Assembly: GCA_944324965.1 (NCBI GenBank)
Contig: CALUYH010000009.1
Location: 1-64,000 of the forward strand
Length of the DNA: 64,000 nucleotides
From: Candidatus Avelusimicrobium gallinaceum
GTDB lineage: Bacteria > Elusimicrobiota > Elusimicrobia > Elusimicrobiales > Elusimicrobiaceae
Direction of reading: 5' to 3'
Notes under the pieces: generated by a model
Database searches by the model: none
Told to the model about the DNA's origin: nothing
The model's input: only the letters and a program-made list of their open reading frames with translations
In this document: positions 50,357-64,000 of the stretch, one piece after another
Layout of the letters: the number at the start of each line of letters is the position of its first letter
How positions within the stretch are numbered: the first letter of the stretch is position 1
Program-made: the position numbers and the translations under genes

Positions 50357-51046
50357 CTAACAAACAGGAATTTTATCGGGACGTAGAATAAATTGTGTGA
50401 CTAAATTTATAAAGTCCGTTTTGTTTTTGCGAGAAGGGTGTGCTAACCGAAGCACATAAAAATAAGTTCCAGAAGAATCGTTTTTTAAATGTCCTTTAAA
50501 CTGCCAAAAGCAAATTTTCCTTTTTCCGCAGCGTATTTTAAATTTCCTATCGGTAACTTCAGTGATTTTGTCAAACAGGCTGCTGATTTCTGCATCATAA
50601 TAGGTGTTTGTGTAAAAAACAATAAATGCAGGGCGGATGAGTTGAATTTCTTTTTTTATAAATTGTTGCTTGCAAATGCAATTTTCTTTTACTTCTTGAG
50701 AGGTTGTGTCTACATCCATAGAAGCATTGCATTTTACCAGATTAGTAATGGCTACATCTTCCCACGACAAGCCAAGTTTTGTGTAGATACCCCGCGTATA
50801 GGACCAAAAAGCCCAAGGCAAATCCTTATATTTGTCGGCATCCGAGTAATAAGAGGGGCTGGAGTTACCACGGGCTGTTTTGCCTACAAATAAGATTTTG
50901 TATTTGCTTTTTTCAAAGTTCGTTCCGTATTGCCAGAGCGGAATTTTCCCAAGCAGGTGGGCAAAAGAACACAGATGGCAACTGTTACAGCCAATTGTTT
51001 TAGCTATTTTTTCTTCCGGGGACATAGGCCGAAGACTTTTCCACAT
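50357..51046 (-). CDS. Uracil-DNA glycosylase superfamily-like protein
   Basis: A 229-residue protein resembling family 4 (Fe-S) uracil-DNA glycosylases. Cys20, Cys23 or Cys26 at the N-terminus and Cys106 plus Cys123/Cys125 could bind a 4Fe-4S cluster; AITNLVKCN (99-107) and the C-terminal AHPSR (202-206) match family motifs. The active-site motif GEAPG is replaced by GKTARG (55-60), so normal activity is doubtful. The start is the ATG at 51046, which overlaps the upstream stop as TAATG; an upstream ATG would reach 85 bases into the neighbour. Coupling to a membrane protein is unusual for DNA repair. Confidence 0.68.
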   Translation of the reverse strand: MWKSLRPMSPEEKIAKTIGCNSCHLCSFAHLLGKIPLWQYGTNFEKSKYKILFVGKTARGNSSPSYYSDADKYKDLPWAFWSYTRGIYTKLGLSWEDVAITNLVKCNASMDVDTTSQEVKENCICKQQFIKKEIQLIRPAFIVFYTNTYYDAEISSLFDKITEVTDRKFKIRCGKRKICFWQFKGHLKNDSSGTYFYVLRLAHPSRKNKTDFINLVTQFILRPDKIPVC

Positions 51047-51954
51047 TAATAAGGCAAATTCTGTTTCAATTTTTCCAATTTGGCGGCTACCGCACGAAAT
51101 GCAAAATAGTTTTTGATGTCTACCGCGCACCAGAACGTCAGCCCCGCCACCATCAGCAACAGGACGACCGGGAACAGCAGCCAGGCCGACGTGGTAAATA
51201 AAAACATTGCTAACATTCCCAAACCCAAATCCAGGGCGCCCACCCCGATAACCCCCAATATCGTAAAAATGGCACGGGGTACGGGATATTGCGGCAGCAA
51301 CAGGCCGTAGCGGCGGTGATTTTCCAGTTGCTTTTCCAAAAACTGAATGAAATCCCGTTCGTTTTTGCCGATGGGCTGTTCGGGAAATTGCCGCTTTACC
51401 TCCGCCGTGCAGGAGCGGAATTTTTTACCTTCGTCCAGCAACGCTTGCACAACCGGCAGTTTGCCTTTATGAAAGACGGGGTAGTTTTTCCCCGCGTGGG
51501 AAAAAGTTATTTCCAGCTCGGCCAGGTGCGGGCAAGCACCCCCTTTATTATAGGTAAGCATTACCGGCAGGCAAACGGATAAATCGGTTTCGGCGTAGGG
51601 GAGAATAACATCGGCACGCTTTTTTTGATATACCAGCCGGACGGCGGCTTCTTCAAACGACAGCAAGGCAACCATATTGGTTTTGCGAACTTGGCTCCAG
51701 CGGCTCGCCCGTGACCAGAAAAAGAGCACCACCCACAGCGCCACCAACGCCGGGAAAATGGCCGCGGTTACATAGTTCAGCAGGCCGCGTTCGCGTGAAT
51801 AGGAAAGGAAATCCTTCCACTCGCTGGCCACAAAGTCCAAGTGGGTAATCAGCAACTGCAACAAAACCAGCACAATCAGTGCGGCAATGATATAGGCCGC
51901 AATATAGATGGGTGACAGAATGGAAAGCGCGGAATTTTTGATTTTCAGTTTCAT
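51046..51954 (-). CDS. Hypothetical multi-pass membrane protein
   Basis: A 302-residue protein, not recognised. It has two N-terminal helices (about 15-38 and 64-85), a soluble middle domain (about 90-215) and a long hydrophobic hairpin (about 220-280). The start is ATG 51954 (MKLKIKNSALS); an upstream ATG in frame adds 28 residues but lies over the divergent gene's promoter. The middle domain contains Cys residues in CLPVML and GACPHL. It is coupled to the UDG-like gene by TAATG, which suggests joint function. Confidence 0.6.
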   Translation of the reverse strand: MKLKIKNSALSILSPIYIAAYIIAALIVLVLLQLLITHLDFVASEWKDFLSYSRERGLLNYVTAAIFPALVALWVVLFFWSRASRWSQVRKTNMVALLSFEEAAVRLVYQKKRADVILPYAETDLSVCLPVMLTYNKGGACPHLAELEITFSHAGKNYPVFHKGKLPVVQALLDEGKKFRSCTAEVKRQFPEQPIGKNERDFIQFLEKQLENHRRYGLLLPQYPVPRAIFTILGVIGVGALDLGLGMLAMFLFTTSAWLLFPVVLLLMVAGLTFWCAVDIKNYFAFRAVAAKLEKLKQNLPY

Positions 51955-54284: not shown

Positions 54285-54329
54285 ACCGGTAACTAAAAAT
54301 ATCGGGAAGAAAATTTCAATATCACTAAC

Positions 54330-54565
54330 AAAAAAGACACCTTGCAAAAGGTGTCTTTTTAAATGGTCTGGCACGGCGTGAGGGTTGCCAAAAACGGCAA
54401 GAGCGGGGAAGCAAAATCCCTGTTTATCAGGCAAATACAGGGAAAAACCGTAAAAGTTGCCCTTTGTATGTGGGCGGGAAAGTGAGTGCCCGCTTATTTT
54501 ATACGGGGGCTTTGTCTTTTTATATACATTCCCTATACCCTGGAACAGGGAAAAACAGGGATTAA
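54330..54565. repeat. Border repeat, copy A
   Basis: First of three copies. A perfect hairpin, AAAAAGACACC with GGTGTCTTTTT (54332-54361), is followed by AAATGGTCTGGCACGGCGTG, then by CCCTGTTTATCAGG and the block AAAAACCGTAAAAGTTGCCC. CAGGGA motifs occur at about 54438 and as a direct repeat near 54545-54561. Read on the minus strand the order is a tRNA-3'-end-like CACGCCGTGCCAGACCA followed by a terminator. It marks the start of the accessory island. On the plus strand the hairpin can also terminate the alpha/beta-hydrolase transcript. Confidence 0.75.
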
Positions 54566-55737
54566 AACACTTTTATTAAATTTTGTTTGTGCGTGTAGCC
54601 TTGCAAGCCGTTTTGCAAAACGGGATACCAGCTGCCTTGTTTTTCCTCGGGCCATACCCATACATAGGTGCCGTCTTTCATCTCTCCGACAATTTTTCCG
54701 TTGGGCTCCTTGCGCACATTGGCGGGGCCGTCCACGCGGTAGAGAACGGGCTCGCTCTTGGGGTGATATGGGCGGGCAATACTCCCTTTTGCTATAAAAT
54801 CCACGGATATATCCCATTCAGGCGTATATTTTTGGCGGTTGACGGCAAAATATGGGCCGCCGTAAAAAGCCTCGCCGTCAAAGCAGCCCACGCTTTTAAG
54901 CGGGCTTTCCACCAGCAGGTTAAAGTTTTCTATGGGGCCTTGCCAGTTGTTGGCGGTAGTAAGGATGTATTCCACATAGTCTTGGGCGTCTAAGTGCTGC
55001 CAGGAATAGGTGCGTTCATTCTCCGGTATAAATACGAAATCCTGATATTTTTGGCTATCTTTATCTATACACTTAGAAAAAGGCGTACCTACATTTGTAG
55101 TCATTGCCGTGGGAACATACGTATGCCGGACGGAAACGGTTTTTCCTGCCGGGAATGTTTGCTGCCAAGAGTAAGAAAGTTGTTTCTGCCACGCGTCTGT
55201 CATTTCCCAGGCTTGCACTTCTCCTCTGGCTGGGTCTAGAATCCAACCGTATTTTAAGATGTTTTTATCAATAAAAGGCTGTCGTTCTTTCGGCTGCAAC
55301 ATTTCAACCCGGCGGTCTAACTCTGCTTCAGAAATGATTTCTTCCTCTGTATAAAAGAGGACGGGGACAAGGGCTGTAATGTCTGTTTCACCGCTTAGAA
55401 TAGTCCAATTTTTTTCATATTTTACAGGTTTGTTATTGACCCATAATTTAAATTCGTAATCGTGGGCAAGGGCTCCTTGCGGGAAAGTCTCTACGGCTGG
55501 CATTTGGGGCAGGGGAAAGAAAACTTGGGTGGTGATATCTTTGCCCGTGGTATTTTCAAACAGATAATTTACTTCTATTTGCCCAGGGCGAATATAGAGG
55601 GCCTCGGTTTTCATTTTAATTCCGTCTTGTTTTTCAAACACCACGCCGCCCGTGGGTAATACCGTGCCGGAAGTGTCGTTGGCATAGGCGTATAATCCTG
55701 TCAAACAACAAAAAACACAGAAAATATATCTAAACAT
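54562..55737 (-). CDS. DUF4424 protein with C-terminal SH3 domain
   Basis: A 391-residue secreted protein with signal peptide MFRYIFCVFCCLTGLYAYA. The mature N-terminus TGGVVFEKQDGIKMKTEALYI, VNYLFENTTGKDITTQVFFPLP, matches DUF4424, a periplasmic family of unknown function. A bacterial SH3-type domain lies at the C-terminus (about 330-391; NVRKEPNGKIVGEMKDG). I start at the ATG at 55737; 14 further codons are open upstream. It lies 50 bases after the amidase-like gene and is probably in the same transcript from the promoter near 56.9 kb. Confidence 0.78.
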   Translation of the reverse strand: MFRYIFCVFCCLTGLYAYANDTSGTVLPTGGVVFEKQDGIKMKTEALYIRPGQIEVNYLFENTTGKDITTQVFFPLPQMPAVETFPQGALAHDYEFKLWVNNKPVKYEKNWTILSGETDITALVPVLFYTEEEIISEAELDRRVEMLQPKERQPFIDKNILKYGWILDPARGEVQAWEMTDAWQKQLSYSWQQTFPAGKTVSVRHTYVPTAMTTNVGTPFSKCIDKDSQKYQDFVFIPENERTYSWQHLDAQDYVEYILTTANNWQGPIENFNLLVESPLKSVGCFDGEAFYGGPYFAVNRQKYTPEWDISVDFIAKGSIARPYHPKSEPVLYRVDGPANVRKEPNGKIVGEMKDGTYVWVWPEEKQGSWYPVLQNGLQGYTHKQNLIKVF

Positions 55738-55787
55738 AATTTCTCTGGGCAACCAAGAGTTGGGCCTATGGTTGCCCATAAACTCCT

Positions 55788-56741
55788 TTATATGGGTCTT
55801 TTATATCTATATATTTTGTATTTTATATTATTTTTATTTTTGGGTTGCCAATGAGTGCTGATTCCTTCTGCCTTGGCTGTTTTCCCATTGACGCTGCCAT
55901 ATACTTCAGGAACATTGCCCTTCCAAGTTGAGGAATTCCTTTCTTTTCCTGTAAGTAAAGCGGCATGTCCGTTTTTTTCTCCTTTTTCTGTAGCCGCGAC
56001 AATATATCCTTCTTGGGCTAGTTTTAATGCCATTGCGTGATCTGTATTTCCATTTTCATCAACAGGTAAGTCAGCCCAATCCCCCGAGAGTTCCATTCCT
56101 TTGATCATACTGTTCATATTGCTGTCTTTGGCTACATTAATCCCTAATTTGGATAACTCCCTGCCGAAGACAGTGTTGCAGCGTAGTTCAGAGCCTATAA
56201 TATTGCCATTTTTGTCTTTTCTAGGGGTATTGCGCCACTGTTCATTTCTTTTTTCCCATTCTTCCGTAGAAGCCCCCTTGGGTTGCGGCCATCTATAAAC
56301 ATACCGTTTTTGCTCTTCATAAGGAGACATGCTTGCAAATGTTTCTTTGGGATCAGGTATATTCAGGCGTTCAAAGATGTTTTGCTCTTTAGGAGGTTTT
56401 TGAAAACTAGTGTTTTCTGTTTGTTTTTCCATAAACTGTTCCCATTGTTGTTGATTTTCCCAGAGGGTTTTTCTTCTGTCAAAGTCGGAAGGTTCATCGG
56501 GTTCAGCGGGGATAAAAGAATCTGTGATGCTAGAGATATGATAAGGAATCTTTTTGTTAGATGAATTTCGTAATTCATAAAGAATATCTTCTTTTTCTTC
56601 GTTATAATTCCTTTTACCGTAAAGTTGTGTGGTAAAATGGTCTTGGCGGGCTTGTTGGCGCTCTAAATATTCTATTTGTTTTAAGCGCGTTTCCAGTAAG
56701 TGCTTGCGCAGTGGATGAATATTAGTGGTTTTGTTCGGTAT
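55788..56741 (-). CDS. Putative peptidoglycan amidase/NlpC-like protein, apparent ATA start
   Basis: The open frame is longer than its first ATG (56432) suggests. It runs 103 codons further, to an ATA at 56741 preceded by AAGGAG with ideal 7-base spacing, giving about 317 residues. The new N-terminal part is charged and helical (KTTNIHPLRKHLLETRL). The C-terminal part, in the numbering from ATG 56432, has LRCNTVFGRELSKLGI (Cys near 84) and KNGHAALLTG (His near 155), like the Cys-His pair of NlpC/CHAP amidases. There is no signal peptide. It could be a cell-wall-targeting effector. Domain assignment is weak. ATA may be a true start or a damaged ATG. Confidence 0.5.
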   Translation of the reverse strand: MPNKTTNIHPLRKHLLETRLKQIEYLERQQARQDHFTTQLYGKRNYNEEKEDILYELRNSSNKKIPYHISSITDSFIPAEPDEPSDFDRRKTLWENQQQWEQFMEKQTENTSFQKPPKEQNIFERLNIPDPKETFASMSPYEEQKRYVYRWPQPKGASTEEWEKRNEQWRNTPRKDKNGNIIGSELRCNTVFGRELSKLGINVAKDSNMNSMIKGMELSGDWADLPVDENGNTDHAMALKLAQEGYIVAATEKGEKNGHAALLTGKERNSSTWKGNVPEVYGSVNGKTAKAEGISTHWQPKNKNNIKYKIYRYKRPI

Positions 56742-57189
56742 AAAGCTACTCCTTAGGTGAGATAATACGTCAAAACGGAAGGCGCGCAGAGACAGAGGTA
56801 ACAGAAAGCCCCTTGGGCAGAAGAAGGGACGGCGCCAAACGGCCCGCCTGAAAGCGGGCTATACTATAAAGATAATTAAAAAGGATTGTACGGCAGGAAG
56901 TATCTATGAATATATTATAGTATAAAATAGTTATAAAAGTCAAGTTTTTATAAAGGTAAGGGATGAAGTAGGCAATAGAAAAAATGAGTTGGTATGATAT
57001 AGAAAAATATAAAATAATAATAGGATTCGGAATCATTTTTTTGAATAGTTGAGAAGGCGATTATGGCTATTTGGCGGCTAGAGAAAAAGCCCGGAAAAGG
57101 GCCTTTTTGCTGTATCTCTAAAAGCTCTCTGGAACGGCAATGTATAAAAACGGCGGGAATCTCCCGACGAGAGAGGGGAAAATTAGATA
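56742..57189. other. Intergenic leader and AT-rich gap
   Basis: No gene is recognised. On the minus strand there is a GCCCGC/GCGGGC hairpin (about 56840-56860), the start of the amidase-gene leader. The remainder to 57190 is AT-rich, with scattered stops in all frames and no clear ribosome sites. Confidence 0.5.
56914..56943 (-). promoter_or_regulatory. Strong sigma70-type promoter for the amidase-like gene
   Basis: On the minus strand, TTGACT (56943-56938) and TATAAT (56919-56914) are separated by 18 bases. This near-consensus promoter is about 170 bases upstream of the ATA codon and reads through the leader into the amidase-like and DUF4424 genes. Confidence 0.7.
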
Positions 57190-57410
57190 ACAAAAAAGCC
57201 GCTTACTTAAAAGCGGCTTTCTAAATGGTCGGGCACGGCGTGCGGACTGCTCAACCCTGTAAGATGGGAGGGTAAAATCCCTGTTTATCAGGCAAAATAC
57301 AGGGAAAAACCGTAAAAGTTGCCCTTTGTATGTGGGAGAAATGCCACACTTATTTCTATTATTGGGATTTTGCCTTTTTGTATGACTTAGAGCAGGGAAA
57401 AACAAGGAAT
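57190..57410. repeat. Border repeat, copy B
   Basis: Second copy. Its hairpin has a different sequence (AAAGCCGCTT with AAGCGGCTTT), so the stem is conserved in shape, not in bases. The following block AAATGGTCGGGCACGGCGTG is the same as in the other copies with single changes. Then CAACCCTGTAAG, AAAATCCCTGTTTATCAGG, AAAATACAGGGAAAAACCG and AAAGTTGCCCTTTGTATG; the last stretch is shared with copy A only. A degenerate CAGGGAAAAACAAGGA lies near 57392. It separates the amidase module from the nuclease module. Confidence 0.75.
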
Positions 57411-58015: not shown

Positions 58016-59284
58016 ATGAAATATGCGTAGAATTTTAAATTGGAAAGTTTTAATCAAGCGAGCTTATTAGTGAACCTTGTTAACTCCGGGCGATTTTGCT
58101 TTTATAAAAATGGAGAAATAAAAGTGTTACAAAATACATTTACTATACACCATATATTAAATTTTATTGCTCAAGGAAATTTTTGTGCGGCTAAAAATGG
58201 GATTAAAAGTTTACTTGCTATAAATCCTAATGAAGATAAATTGTATGAATTATATTACTATTGTCTGCAAAAGTTACAAGAGGCTGAGAAAATGTGTGTG
58301 GTCCCGCCTACTAAGACCAGCGTATTTTGCCCTTGGAAAGAAATAATGTTCCAAGGCCGGCAACAGGCTAATAAACAAAATTACAATCAAGCCATAGCAT
58401 TATTTGCGCAATCCGCCCAATTAATGAAAGAAAGCCGTTCTCACTCCGTTTTTGCCTCGCAGCATTTAAGCCAAGAAGAAAAAGAACTGCTTTTGGGGCA
58501 GGAGCGGCTTTTGTATTACCAAGCAGTTTGTTTTTACTTAAAGAAAGATACATCACAAGCTCGGGCATATTTTAATGCCTCATTACAGGCACGTCTGCAG
58601 GCTGTATATCAAAATGTAGCAGAATGCGTGGAGGTTTTCCTTCGTCTTAAACAGCCTTTGCGGGCTTTAACGTATATCAATGAGTTGCTTGCCAATAAAA
58701 CAGAGGCGACGCGTTTCCCTTTGTATAGGATAAGGGCCAAAATATATAGAAATTTGGGGTTGGCAGAAAATCAAAAAAGAGATGAGGCCCAAGCTCTTGT
58801 GTATTATCAGCGTCGTATTAAGCGATTTGCCTTAGAAGCAAGCTCCTATGAAGAGTTATCCTCTTTTTTGATTGAAATAGGAAAATATGAGGAGGCTTTG
58901 CAGATTAATGCAAAAGCGATTGCTTTAGAACCTAATTTTTATATCTATTATCTAACCCGTGCCAAAATATATGCTCTTTTAAAAAATAAAGATGCCGCTT
59001 TCAAAACGCTTGCGTTATTAGCAAAAGAATCTTTTAGTATGGAAAATCAATTTTTTGCTTTAGAACGTGGAGAGGTTTATGAAATATTGAAAGATTATGA
59101 CGCAGCTGAAGCCTGTTATTTACAGGAAACGGAACGTCCCGGAAATCGGCGGGACTATTTGGTGTCTCTCTATGTGCAAACTGGCAGGACGGATAAAATA
59201 CACGGTGTAAACCAACAATTAGCGCAGGAAAAAGAGTTTGACGATCGTGTAAGCGAGCAGATGTGGAGATCTCTTTTGAATTAA
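58016..59284 (+). CDS. TPR-repeat protein with an in-frame amber codon at position 5
   Basis: The main frame (58040-59284, TTG start, 414 residues) encodes TPR-like helices: AIALFAQSAQLMKE, QARAYFNASLQARL, EALQINAKAIALEPNFYIYYLTRA. No signal peptide is seen, so it is probably cytosolic. An upstream ATG at 58016 with AGGA before it is in the same frame, but codon 5 is TAG (58028-58030): ATG AAA TAT GCG TAG. Either the gene is damaged, or it re-initiates at TTG 58040, or the TAG is read through. It converges with the beta-CASP gene, overlapping it by 4 bases. Base composition is AT-rich, unlike the backbone. Confidence 0.65.
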
Positions 59285-60549
59285 ATAAAAAAGCGTTCTC
59301 CGTCTTGTAATATGCGGACCGGTACCTTAAAAAGGGCTTGGTAGCTTTCTGCACAGTTTGTATGAATAGGAATAAGTAGTTTGGGGCGTATTTGCTGTAC
59401 CAAACGATATAAAGAATCAAAATCCGCGTGTCCAGAAGTGTGGAGTGTATGCACCTCCTGGTTGCGTTCTTTAGCGTTGCGTGCAAAAGAGTTGGCTTCT
59501 TGTGTTAAATATCCTTCCCAGGCACTATGAATAAATCGCAAAGATACGGAATGGCGTAATAACTTCTGTCTGATGGAAAAATTATCCTTAATAATAAATT
59601 GATGAGGAGTGTTTATTATCTCCTGTATGGATATTTTTTTGCTTTTGTAGGTAGAAAGGTGTGGCTTTAAATGATCCGTTAGTGTGTTTTTGGCAAAATA
59701 TACACGGATGTTTTTCCAGTTCCATTGTGGTATGGATTTGCCTAAATGTGCAAATTGCTCTAATACAAAGCAACTATAAGGATCTAAGACTAGGGTTTTA
59801 TTCAGCCTGCGTGCTGCTTTATAAACCGATACAAATCGGTCCAAATTTTGGGCAGAAAAATAAATAAGGCTTAGTCCATCCCCCGAAAAAGCTTGCTCTA
59901 AACGTTTTTGTAGCATATCCTCGGTGTCTGTGTGCATTTGTACACGTGAAAGGGTTGTCCCTTCCATAAGCATATAATCCGGGGAGACGCAACGAGCAAA
60001 ATATTTGGTTAAATAAGCGCATTTACCATGATTTCTCAAATCTCCAGTATAAAGAATTTTTATGTTGCCGATATTCACTTGATAAGCCAATGCTTCGGGT
60101 ACACTGTGATCTACGGGAATAGCCTTTACCCTTATTTTGCCGATACAAACGGTTTGTTTGGGTCGTAAAACGCGAAAATGTAAATGTTCCAAATGCGTGC
60201 CAAATAGTGGGGCGATATGCTGCAGCAGATTGATGGTTGTTTGGCTGGCATATACGGGAATTTGGGGGTGTAATTCTGTTAACAAACCATAATGGTCCGG
60301 GTGGGCATGGGTAAGGAACAGGGCGTTTATTTGGGGAGTTTGTTCTCTATATACTCCACGCACGGGTACTCGATAGGCTTTGGGTGATTTGTGTTCTTGT
60401 ATCGACTCTAGAGGCAGGCCAAAGTCAAAAAGCACCCGGTTCCCTTCTGCATAAATTTCAACACAATTACCGCCAATGTTATGGGTCGCCCGGTGAATAA
60501 TCAAGCCTCTTTGTCTTGAGGTTGATGTCGGCAGATTATTCTTTTCCAT
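59281..60549 (-). CDS. Beta-CASP metallo-beta-lactamase-fold nuclease (RNase J-like)
   Basis: A 422-residue metallo-beta-lactamase protein. It opens with HNIGGNCVEI and VLFDFGLPL, then carries the metal motif THAHPDH (80-86; HxHxDH), a further His in VDHSVP and Asp in LYTGDLRNHG. The beta-CASP insert spans about residues 190-370 (LSLIYFSAQNLDRFVSVYKAA), and the C-terminal motifs TSGHADFDSL and LLIPIHTN match RNase J-type enzymes. There is no KH-like C-terminal domain. It overlaps the upstream nuclease gene by 49 bases. As the host's RNase J would be elsewhere, this is an accessory member. Confidence 0.8.
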   Translation of the reverse strand: MEKNNLPTSTSRQRGLIIHRATHNIGGNCVEIYAEGNRVLFDFGLPLESIQEHKSPKAYRVPVRGVYREQTPQINALFLTHAHPDHYGLLTELHPQIPVYASQTTINLLQHIAPLFGTHLEHLHFRVLRPKQTVCIGKIRVKAIPVDHSVPEALAYQVNIGNIKILYTGDLRNHGKCAYLTKYFARCVSPDYMLMEGTTLSRVQMHTDTEDMLQKRLEQAFSGDGLSLIYFSAQNLDRFVSVYKAARRLNKTLVLDPYSCFVLEQFAHLGKSIPQWNWKNIRVYFAKNTLTDHLKPHLSTYKSKKISIQEIINTPHQFIIKDNFSIRQKLLRHSVSLRFIHSAWEGYLTQEANSFARNAKERNQEVHTLHTSGHADFDSLYRLVQQIRPKLLIPIHTNCAESYQALFKVPVRILQDGERFFI

Positions 60550-61238
60550 TTTTCGTAATTCTGAACCGCTTTTTTAATTTCTTGGAATGTAACATCGTTC
60601 AAATAGTCTGAGTGAATAGATAAGAAGGAAATGAAAGCCTTTTCCTTGCGTAAAATAACATTGATTGTTTCAATAAACCGGGCGGCCTTTTTATCATAAA
60701 AGGAACCCGGGGCGAGAACCACTAATTGCAAAGGTTCTTTTAGAAGATAACGTTGCCTAAAAATTACGGCAGGGGCTTGATTTGTGTTTTTATTGTAAGC
60801 ATGGCGTAATAAAAAATAATAATAGATAACCTCATAACATGCCCAATAAAAATCGCCAGATGAGCCTTGTTCATTCGTTTTTAATTCAATAATACTTTTA
60901 ATGGTGCGGTTATCCGCTTCTAGCTCTATCATATCAGCCGCTATGCGGCGGTTGCTTCCTTTTGATGTGCCCGGGCCAAAGGCAAACTGATTATAGAAAT
61001 GTTCGTGTCCGGAAGTTAATAGAATTTCTAAAAGCGTTTCGTGCTTTACTGTATCATTTTTAACCAGTTGTTCTAAATTCAGTTGTTTGCGGGCTGTTAA
61101 AATAGAACCGCGAAAATAAAATGTTTGAGCTTCTTGTTTTAATTGTTCTAAAAGAGTTTCTATTACACTAGGAGAATCTTCTGTTAGTTGCTTTTTGAGG
61201 CTTTTTGCCCATTTGGAAAAAATAAAGGGGTGATCCAT
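60501..61238 (-). CDS. PD-(D/E)XK-nuclease-like protein
   Basis: A 245-residue protein with no close match in my knowledge. The segment Asp102...Glu118-Leu-Lys120 (ADMIELEADN then IIELKTN) reads as the D-X(n)-E-X-K active site of the PD-(D/E)XK fold, and the following SSGDFYWACYEVIYYYF is the expected helix. The N-terminal 60 residues form a helical, charged region. Its 3' end overlaps the beta-CASP gene by 49 bases, so the two are translated together. The upstream gap holds repeat copy C and then cas9 on the other strand. A nuclease pair in an accessory island suggests defence; this is inference. Confidence 0.55.
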   Translation of the reverse strand: MDHPFIFSKWAKSLKKQLTEDSPSVIETLLEQLKQEAQTFYFRGSILTARKQLNLEQLVKNDTVKHETLLEILLTSGHEHFYNQFAFGPGTSKGSNRRIAADMIELEADNRTIKSIIELKTNEQGSSGDFYWACYEVIYYYFLLRHAYNKNTNQAPAVIFRQRYLLKEPLQLVVLAPGSFYDKKAARFIETINVILRKEKAFISFLSIHSDYLNDVTFQEIKKAVQNYEKWKRIICRHQPQDKEA

Positions 61239-61523
61239 ATTTTAATTCCTTATTTGTGTGTTTAATTTTTTTGTTTGTGTAATATTGCCAATAGTCCATA
61301 TTTTTTATATTTTTTCCAAATAATGTGTCAAATTTATTTTTATGTCTTGTAGCAGCTGAAAATGCTTCTTTTGCCTTAGTCTAGTAGACAGTGCAAAATA
61401 CAGGGGGAGGACCTCTTTGATTTGCCCTATAAATTTTGCTGAGGACTTTTTCCCGCACGGAAGCGAAAAAAATTTTCCCATCTAAATGCTAAGATGGATC
61501 TTATTATAAATATGCATACAGAC
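61239..61523. other. AT-rich gap upstream of the nuclease pair
   Basis: No gene is recognised in 285 bases. It is very AT-rich at 61240-61340. At 61393-61406 a lone GCAAAATACAGGG matches the core of the border repeats. A CCATCT/AGATGG stem-loop lies at 61478-61497, and a GAGGAC direct repeat occurs near 61407 and 61440. The promoter for the nuclease genes should lie at 61240-61330. Confidence 0.45.
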
Positions 61524-61660
61524 AACAAAAAAGACACCTTGCAAAAGGTGTCTTTTTAAATGGTCGGGCATGGCGTGCAGACTGCCCAACCCTGTAAGAG
61601 GAGAAAGCAAAATCCCTGTTTATCAGGGAAAATACAGGGAATTTTGCCTCATTTTAAGCT
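61524..61660. repeat. Border repeat, copy C
   Basis: Third copy, beside cas9. Its hairpin (AAAAAGACACC with GGTGTCTTTTT, about 61528-61557) is identical to that of copy A, and no plus-strand gene lies upstream to use it as a terminator. Then come AAATGGTCGGGCATGGCGTG, CAACCCTGTAAG, AAAATCCCTGTTTATCAGGG and CAGGGAAAATACAGGGA. It lacks the AAAGTTGCCCTTTG stretch of copies A and B. Two more CAGGGAATT motifs lie at about 61746 and 61768. Confidence 0.75.
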
Positions 61661-61924: not shown

Positions 61925-64000
61925 ATGGCAATCAGCAAAAGTCTGGCGGGAAAATCCTACCGCTTAGGTATAGATTTGGGAACATCTTCCATTGGTACGG
62001 CCGTATATGAATTGGACGAAGATAAAAATATCACGCGTTTACTCCATTTAGATAGTTATATCTTTGGCGAACCCATCGCGCCCAAAGAAATGGTTACCCT
62101 TAATACGGCCCGCCGTGCTGCACGCCTCATGCGCAAGCAAATTGAACGTAAAGCGGCCCGCTTGCGCAAAATCAAATATATGGCCGAGTCGTTGGGTGTT
62201 ACGCGGGATGATCTATTGGCGGATAAAGAGGACGTAATTGCCTTGCGCGCCAAAGCGGTGGAAGAAGAACTTACCTTGCCGCAGCTGATGAAAGTGTTTT
62301 GCCATATCGTTAAAAACCGCGGCTACAAAGGCACGTTAAGCGCGGAGGAGAGAGGCGTCATCGGCAAAAAATTAAGCCAAACGTCGTCCCAGCTGGCCAA
62401 CGGCAAAACGTTGGGGCAGTTGCTCTATGAGCGTAAACAAGCCAGCGCAGGGAACCCTTGGCGCAAAATAGAAGAAGACGGCACCTTTATTTATCGCCAA
62501 ATGGTAGAAGAAGAATTTAACCGCATTTACGACAAACAAAGCTCTTACCACCCGCAGCTGCGCGGTACTTACGCCGTGTGGGGGGAAAATATGTTCCCCG
62601 ATTTCCCCGGCCAAAAAGAAATTCCGCTTAAAGACGCCTTCCACTCCGCCCTGTTTTACCAACGCCCCATTAAATGGGAGCTGGAAAATGTAGGCGCCTG
62701 TCCGCTCTTCCCGCAAGAAAAGCGCGCCGCCTGCGCCCAGGTGGCCTATCAGCATTACCGGTTAGCCAAAGATATTGCCAACTTGCGGCTTGCCAAAAAA
62801 GGCGAAAAAGAATCCTATCCGCTTACCTTGGCCCAGCAAACGCAGCTTTTTAACTATGTGGACAGCTCCACCGGCGATTATACGGCGGACAGCGCGGTGA
62901 TTCCGTTTGCCAAAATTTATCAAGCCTTGTCGCTGCCCTCTGATGTTTCGTTTACCATTGACCGCAAAAACGGCACCAAGCAAGGGTTAAAAGGCAACAC
63001 CACGCTGTTTGCTTTTGAACAGGCCGGCGTGCTGAACGAGTGGGCAAACTTGACGGATAAAGTGCAGGAGCTGGTGATAGAATTTTTGGCCAACATTACC
63101 ACGTTTTCGGATATTGAGGACAATACGGACGAATATATCGGCCAAAGTTTTGTGGAGTTAACCCGCAATATCTCGGCCGACGCATCCGAGCGGCAGCGTG
63201 GGATAGACTTTATTTGCGCACTGAAAAAGGAGCAGGTTTTTTTGTCCTTCACGTTAGAAAAGGGCCGGGCTTCTTACAGCGTAAAAGCTTTGCGTTTGCT
63301 GACTGACGGCCTATTGCAAGGGCAGGACGAAACCGATTTGCTGGCCCATATCCAGCCGCCGCAAGCGGCTTTACGGGGCAAGTTGCGTTCGGTAGGGGCT
63401 ATTAAAAAGCAGGAATCTATCAATGACCCGGTGATGAGCCGCGCCCTGGCCGAATTTTACCGCGTGCTGAATTACATCGTCCACAAGTACGGCCAACCGG
63501 ACGAAATCGTGGTAGAACTTTCGCGGGAAATCAAAAATTCCCTGCGCCGCCGCCAGTGGCTGGAAGGCCAAAACAGACTGCAGGCCGACGAACGCAAAAA
63601 AGCCATTGCCGCGCTGCAGCAAGGCCACGTGTTGGTCAGCCCGCGCAATATAGAAAAATACCTGCTCTGGGAGGAGCAAAACCACCTGTGCCCATACAGC
63701 GGCCAACCCATTTCGTTCGCGCAGGCGTTTGACGAACGGCAAACGCAAGTGGACCACATCATTCCGCAGCGGGGGGAAATCCCGGGGCCAAACGTATTTG
63801 AAAATAAAGTCTTGGCACTCACGCAGGAGAACAAAGATAAATCCAACCGCTTGCCCTACGAATGGAAATTCCGGCAGGATATAGAAGACTATTTGGCGTT
63901 CCAAAAAGACAAAAAGGCCAAACGCAAAAAAGGCGAAGACGCCGGCGGCTCCTTTGGCAACCACAGCCCGCTGATTAATTTCGTTTCGCATTTATGGATG
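61925..64000 (+). CDS. cas9: CRISPR-associated endonuclease Cas9 (partial, cut by window edge)
   Basis: The frame from ATG 61925 stays open for all 692 codons to the end of the window; the 3' part is missing. RuvC-I is YRLGIDLGTSSIG with catalytic Asp17. An arginine-rich bridge helix follows (about 59-90; TARRAARLMRKQIERKAARLRK). RuvC-II is EIVVELSRE with Glu531. The HNH nuclease has QVDHIIPQ with His611 and ENKDKSNR. The Asp/Glu/His spacing is close to that of type II-C Cas9 such as N. meningitidis (about 1,080 residues), so a total of about 1,000-1,100 is expected. RuvC-III and the PAM-interacting domain lie beyond the edge. It follows border repeat C directly. Confidence 0.93.
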   Translation, partial: MAISKSLAGKSYRLGIDLGTSSIGTAVYELDEDKNITRLLHLDSYIFGEPIAPKEMVTLNTARRAARLMRKQIERKAARLRKIKYMAESLGVTRDDLLADKEDVIALRAKAVEEELTLPQLMKVFCHIVKNRGYKGTLSAEERGVIGKKLSQTSSQLANGKTLGQLLYERKQASAGNPWRKIEEDGTFIYRQMVEEEFNRIYDKQSSYHPQLRGTYAVWGENMFPDFPGQKEIPLKDAFHSALFYQRPIKWELENVGACPLFPQEKRAACAQVAYQHYRLAKDIANLRLAKKGEKESYPLTLAQQTQLFNYVDSSTGDYTADSAVIPFAKIYQALSLPSDVSFTIDRKNGTKQGLKGNTTLFAFEQAGVLNEWANLTDKVQELVIEFLANITTFSDIEDNTDEYIGQSFVELTRNISADASERQRGIDFICALKKEQVFLSFTLEKGRASYSVKALRLLTDGLLQGQDETDLLAHIQPPQAALRGKLRSVGAIKKQESINDPVMSRALAEFYRVLNYIVHKYGQPDEIVVELSREIKNSLRRRQWLEGQNRLQADERKKAIAALQQGHVLVSPRNIEKYLLWEEQNHLCPYSGQPISFAQAFDERQTQVDHIIPQRGEIPGPNVFENKVLALTQENKDKSNRLPYEWKFRQDIEDYLAFQKDKKAKRKKGEDAGGSFGNHSPLINFVSHLWM

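Follow-up and report, generated by a model that had tools for sequence, protein, structure and literature searches.

The window analysed here, 64,000 nucleotides of contig 9 from the 31-contig, 1.49-Mb genome of the gut bacterium Candidatus Avelusimicrobium gallinaceum, carries on its minus strand two overlapping genes, the first encoding a candidate nuclease of the PD-(D/E)XK type with 245 amino acids (aa) and the second a 422-aa beta-CASP metallo-beta-lactamase (MBL) protein. Relatives of this pair recur in numerous phyla of bacteria, on plasmids, in prophages and at chromosomal loci, and the account that we favour, with moderate confidence, is that of a widespread mobile module of two nucleases, which would jointly attack the nucleic acid of invading phages or plasmids, or else kill the infected cell. 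It builds on the following observed features: the pairing and its gene order, intact active sites, exchange of one partner, fixed sites that are either filled or empty, and occurrence on plasmids and prophage-like contigs. The more far-reaching proposal, that of a phylum-spanning immune system that joins a constant beta-CASP RNase of RNA type to an interchangeable PD-(D/E)XK nuclease and gains new specificities by partner swap, is put forward tentatively, and we hold it to be possible rather than probable.

The PD-(D/E)XK-like gene (positions 60501-61238, minus strand) stands first and has AAGGA ahead of its ATG, and the beta-CASP gene (59281-60549, minus strand) follows. Both reading frames were found where a preliminary description of this DNA had placed them, with an overlap of 49 bp (60501-60549, minus strand) if the longest frames are taken. 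The overlap holds the tetranucleotide TTGA at 60501-60504, in which an in-frame TTG (60502-60504) shares bases with the nuclease stop codon TGA (60501-60503); with the start at this TTG (60504) the beta-CASP protein would comprise 407 aa. Overlaps of 4 nucleotides are common among related pairs, and the true overlap in the window may be TTGA, not 49 bp, as in many relatives.

Relatives of the beta-CASP protein were collected by tblastn, profile and contig searches and came from Elusimicrobiota, Pseudomonadota, Nitrospirota, Bacteroidota, Omnitrophota, Planctomycetota, Actinomycetota, Myxococcota and others. Adjacency was assessed for 76 loci picked by the beta-CASP protein only, the partner being defined as a same-strand open reading frame (ORF) at -320 to +200 bp. 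An adjacent ORF with the D..ExK motif was present in 56 of the 76 loci, as compared with 29 of 291 distant ORFs (10%) of the same loci (Fisher p 1e-19), and with the strict motif (D..ExK plus [QE]xxxY) the counts were 35/76 and 9/291, respectively (Fisher p 1e-15). The co-location of homologues in other genomes, on which the preliminary description had staked the pair, is borne out by these counts. The partner lies upstream or downstream of the beta-CASP gene, varying by locus. That the D..ExK match arose by coincidence among unrelated neighbours we regard as most improbable: a short motif and the lack of a database match for the window protein speak for it, but the adjacency is enriched at p<1e-15, the D, E, K and Y columns are conserved, and a related partner family gave a confident PD-(D/E)XK-like model. 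Chance adjacency was rejected by the comparison with distant ORFs. A small uncharacterised protein with the signature GIFW...HYR adjoins the pair in several alphaproteobacteria (L021:6552-6947, L022:6510-6986, L023:8250-8624, L029:4549-4992); considered as a third component, it was rejected because its occurrence is limited to some proteobacteria.

In Pfam, the families matched by the beta-CASP protein are Lactamase_B_2 (E 4e-18) and RMMBL (E 9e-9). In the metal-binding motif HAHPDH (residues 81-86; 60292-60309, minus strand) H81, H83, D85 and H86 are invariant in 114 of 114 relatives, which likewise all keep H148, D170, E196 and the H374 of motif B (SGHA; 59428-59430, minus strand), and H396 (59362-59364, minus strand), the motif-C histidine of RNA-type beta-CASP enzymes, is kept in 113 of 114. 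The intact HxHxDH and the RNase J-type C-terminal motif reported at the outset both hold, the latter by H374 and by H396, which aligns to the PVHGE/PIHGE histidine of RNase J. In RNA-processing beta-CASP enzymes the second metal has an extra histidine ligand, His418 in CPSF73, which DNA-processing ones lack (PMC8450076); in the alignment its place is taken by H396. Since H396 corresponds to this RNA-type histidine (PMC8450076), RNase activity is predicted, and the protein would represent, judging by its sequence, an RNA-type metallo-hydrolase with a complete metal site. Other beta-CASP proteins of the same order lack a PD-(D/E)XK neighbour (L006, L007, L009, L011-L014, L016); some of them lie in tandem, and several have lost the catalytic Asp or His; in the same-order clade without nuclease neighbour, D85 is lost in 4 of 8 members and H396 in 4 of 8.

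In the 245-aa partner, the D-X15-E-X-K pattern noticed earlier is formed by D102 (60933-60935) and E118-L-K120 (60879-60887), and it is joined by E136xxxY140 (60819-60833; all on the minus strand), the counterpart of the QxxxY helix motif; the protein therewith carries the D..ExK catalytic triad by which the PD-(D/E)XK superfamily is recognised. In the alignment of 85 partners D102 and E118 are invariant and E66 and K120 exceed 90%, with most of these partners preselected by the motif, so that the unbiased evidence is the adjacency count; among 10 early-found partners the invariant columns besides Met1 are D102, E118, K120 and Y140. For the window protein, Pfam and PADLOC gave no match and NCBIfam gave noise only, and few other partners are recognised by models of these three collections. 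Its AlphaFold2 model (seven sequences; pLDDT 44) shows the helix and strand order of the PD-(D/E)XK alpha-beta-beta-beta-alpha-beta core, which is not evidence alone. One member of the largest partner family was modelled at pLDDT 90, and among its top PDB matches Foldseek returned XisH (probability 0.99), Can2, Shedu, BstEII, MunI, AddB and McrBC, which are of the PD-(D/E)XK kind; this family has no significant profile match to that of the window (hhalign probability 4%). A non-nuclease fold, named in the preliminary description as the finding that would overturn it, did not appear, the model of the window protein being of low confidence and the confident one belonging to another partner family. 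Altogether, the 245-aa partner is probably a PD-(D/E)XK-like nuclease, metal-dependent and DNA-cutting.

The 85 partners fall into about nine families and singletons (phmmer). Profile comparison ties the window family to F4 (94%), F3a (94%) and F8 (76%), and a second group of partners (F35, F35b and F7) has no significant profile link to the window group. In the beta-CASP tree different partner families are located on close relatives. Where two beta-CASP proteins are at least 70% identical, similarity of their nucleases is undetectable in 19 of 36 comparisons, and therefore the partner looks swappable. For instance, the beta-CASP proteins of L105 and L110 are 88% identical and their nucleases unrelated; in Bradyrhizobium, the loci L064, L065 and L066 have beta-CASP proteins of 76-79% identity with partners of undetectable similarity, and four loci carry three partner types. 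Fusions of the partner to TPR repeats (L042) and to a DEDDh domain (L101) were found as well. From these sequence comparisons, the beta-CASP protein looks like the constant part of the pair and the PD-(D/E)XK protein like the exchangeable one.

The pair of the window is part of a mobile block. The segment 57180-61641 is 98.8% identical to its counterpart in another species of the genus (G028), as compared with 75-82% for the neighbouring DNA. This block of about 4.3 kb consists of the pair and a convergent gene for a TPR protein (58040-59284, plus strand), and the three genes with the DNA between them (4.2 kb) show 11 nucleotide differences. Both breakpoints lie within repeats of about 120 bp, R2 on the left (57185-57306, plus strand) and R3 on the right (61520-61641, plus strand), each of 122 nucleotides and 83% identical to one another; a third copy, R1 (54327-54444, plus strand), marks the place that the block takes in G028. 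Of 61 genomes in the genus, 40 contain the repeat, often in clusters. Because the breakpoints fall in repeats and the repeat is widespread and clustered in the genus, the simplest account is that the block was swapped by repeat-repeat recombination, and its recent exchange between two species at repeat sites constitutes a natural experiment. The border repeats of the preliminary description are real, and the mobility that it proposed is supported, also by prophage-like and plasmid copies of the pair.

The repeat opens with a terminator-like hairpin and often returns at intervals of 1-4 kb, separating modules of secreted-looking proteins (in the window, and at L183, L184 and L185), and it looks like a recombination border for gene cassettes. 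Between R1 and R2 two genes (54562-56432, minus strand; 405 and 214 aa) are situated, and in other species of this genus their relatives are arranged as tandem modules. The TPR gene, the membership of which had been left undecided, does travel with the block and does not recur beside other pairs. Because its single distant full-length homologue in 61 genomes does not stand beside a pair, it was rejected as a third component and does not count among the conserved parts of the system. TPR domains may come back in a different guise, since the unrelated L042 partner has such repeats fused to D..ExK.

At a second site, between mutY and an outer-membrane gene (OMP), pairs of another partner family were found in six genomes of related species (G015, G010, G079, G089, G078, where the contig ends ahead of the OMP gene, and G091, with extra DNA between mutY and the pair). 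The site is empty in G020, G023 and G034, where the two genes directly adjoin (52-93 bp). Four IMG/VR contigs bear the pair: in L205 it stands beside recombinase/integrase genes, in L206 between terminase-like and other phage-like genes, and in L203 and L204 it adjoins a tail tape-measure-like gene, with gene roles judged from sequence without family search. Plasmid copies are located near an operon of restriction-modification (R-M) type and TcmP, DUF5131 and WYL genes. The overlapping gene order, the frequent exchange of one partner and the carriage on plasmids and prophages would also suit a toxin-antitoxin-like or abortive module, in which one nuclease is the toxin and its partner restrains it until infection, with exchange as in toxin-antitoxin families. 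This is the main rival explanation, yet we consider it unlikely, for the catalytic motifs of both partners are complete in almost every copy, whereas an antitoxin is not normally an enzyme, and the partner may be upstream or downstream.

We infer defence as the likely function of the pair. In the flanks of 14 Elusimicrobiota pair loci 192 PADLOC models were matched (1e-10), including type I and II methyltransferases, specificity subunits, AbiLi and AriA, versus 16 for control regions taken from these genomes, the contrast being one of models, not proteins, and R-M models being redundant; a wider flank set, without matched control, gave 200 models. Regulators of the WYL type, a common element of defence loci, were present in the fetched flanks of 14 loci. 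A non-defence role, in a nucleic-acid processing or repair pair that spreads horizontally (e.g., for RNA turnover under stress), would accord with the closest solved relatives, EF2904 and RNase J, which are of unknown function or involved in RNA metabolism, and with the position of most Elusimicrobiota loci outside classical defence islands. We rate it as quite unlikely in view of the patchy occurrence (59 of 341 Elusimicrobiota genomes with a beta-CASP relative at E<=1e-40, solo-type proteins counted in), the presence or absence at fixed sites, the prophage cargo positions and the fast-changing partner.

Several points weigh against the two-nuclease defence module. Apart from the redundancy of the PADLOC contrast, methylase-like proteins were recognised by motif check at only about 4 of the 14 pair loci; the fold of the window nuclease was modelled at low confidence, and the Foldseek E-values for the related partner are weak (best 0.024). 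Furthermore, L135, L112 and L140 represent beta-CASP genes of the same clade without PD-(D/E)XK neighbour, and in other members of the clade the beta-CASP gene adjoins a DEDDh exonuclease (L098) or metallophosphoesterase (L026) gene instead. Genes of these two kinds overlap or adjoin the beta-CASP gene at L025:8215-8859, L026:8443-9012 and L098:5154-5954, and no PD-(D/E)XK gene was seen beside it at L026 and L098.

If the module functions as we propose, the PD-(D/E)XK protein would be made first and the beta-CASP protein translated by coupling at the overlapping start. We infer a physical complex of the two, i.e. a two-subunit nuclease, and its substrates: the beta-CASP subunit would be the constant, RNA-cutting part and the PD-(D/E)XK subunit the exchangeable part, cutting or recognising DNA. 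Because it is exchangeable, the latter is proposed to set what is recognised or cut, and thus most likely the target. One subunit would act on DNA and the other on RNA of the invading phage or plasmid, or the infected cell would be killed. Were this true, a widespread nuclease pair would be added to bacterial immunity, and its constant-plus-exchangeable design would allow a direct test of specificity change in defence systems. Current detection tools miss the pair since its beta-CASP gene has no model in PADLOC-DB 2.0, where no convincing match was obtained for these proteins, and its partners are mostly unrecognised by Pfam; weak PADLOC matches (PDC-S11/S18) were returned for few partners only. 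The pair was without description in the literature searched, which covered open-licence papers only, and its novelty is therefore not proven.

Adjacent to the block, as the preliminary description had it, lies cas9, which starts at 61925 and is followed by cas1, cas2 and a CRISPR array of type II; the earlier remark on AT-richness is equally supported, with a GC content of about 36-43% in the pair region versus 49-56% in cas9. Since cas9 does not adjoin the block in G028, this neighbourhood is not a fixed property of the block, and cas9 was rejected as a partner of the pair. In another genus of the family (G121, L157:1-375) a related pair also adjoins a CRISPR array, the repeat of which is near-identical to that of the type II locus of the window (L202:7445-9200, G000:C9); from this case, CRISPR and the pair are likely to occur in shared islands. 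Elsewhere in the window, in an AT-rich patch, a gene at 50357-51130 (minus strand) encodes a protein the domain of which resembles family-4 uracil-DNA glycosylases, with a score far under the NCBIfam cut-off.

Among known systems, the beta-CASP protein is closest to EF2904 (best PDB match, 2az4, E 6e-41), followed by RNase J. It shares with them the MBL, beta-CASP and RMMBL core, HxHxDH and the motif-B and motif-C histidines; unlike them, it is mobile and paired with a nuclease, and it lacks the C-terminal domain of RNase J, ending after the beta-CASP/RMMBL core (family size about 400-430 aa). It scores 69 bits against a cut-off of 400 for RNase J (NCBIfam TIGR00649) and stays under every NCBIfam cut-off compared. 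The type VII CRISPR effector Cas14 is a beta-CASP nuclease that serves prokaryotic defence (PDB 8yhd, matched to the profile at E 2.6e-12), but the window protein reaches 22 bits against a cut-off of 800, and the neighbouring cas9, cas1 and cas2 are of type II, both of which speak against Cas14. With the PD-(D/E)XK defence nucleases (Shedu SduA, Can2, McrC) and those of RecB/AddB type, the partner has in common the D..ExK core and the [QE]xxxY helix, and their folds are among the top Foldseek matches for the related partner; unlike them, the window protein is unrecognised by Pfam, NCBIfam and PADLOC models. To our knowledge, no PD-(D/E)XK defence nuclease with a beta-CASP partner is known.

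Trypsin-MBL modules, in which a trypsin-like protease is fused to a defence enzyme beside an MBL gene, occur in Hachiman, AVAST, Lamassu and DRT (HamM; PMC12799240). No such fusion gene was found beside the window pair, and the 25 most frequent Pfam families in a set of 129 flank proteins include none of this kind. The modules resemble the pair in that an MBL nuclease gene belongs to a two-gene defence unit and is reused with varied partners (PMC12799240), whereas the partner here is a PD-(D/E)XK protein.
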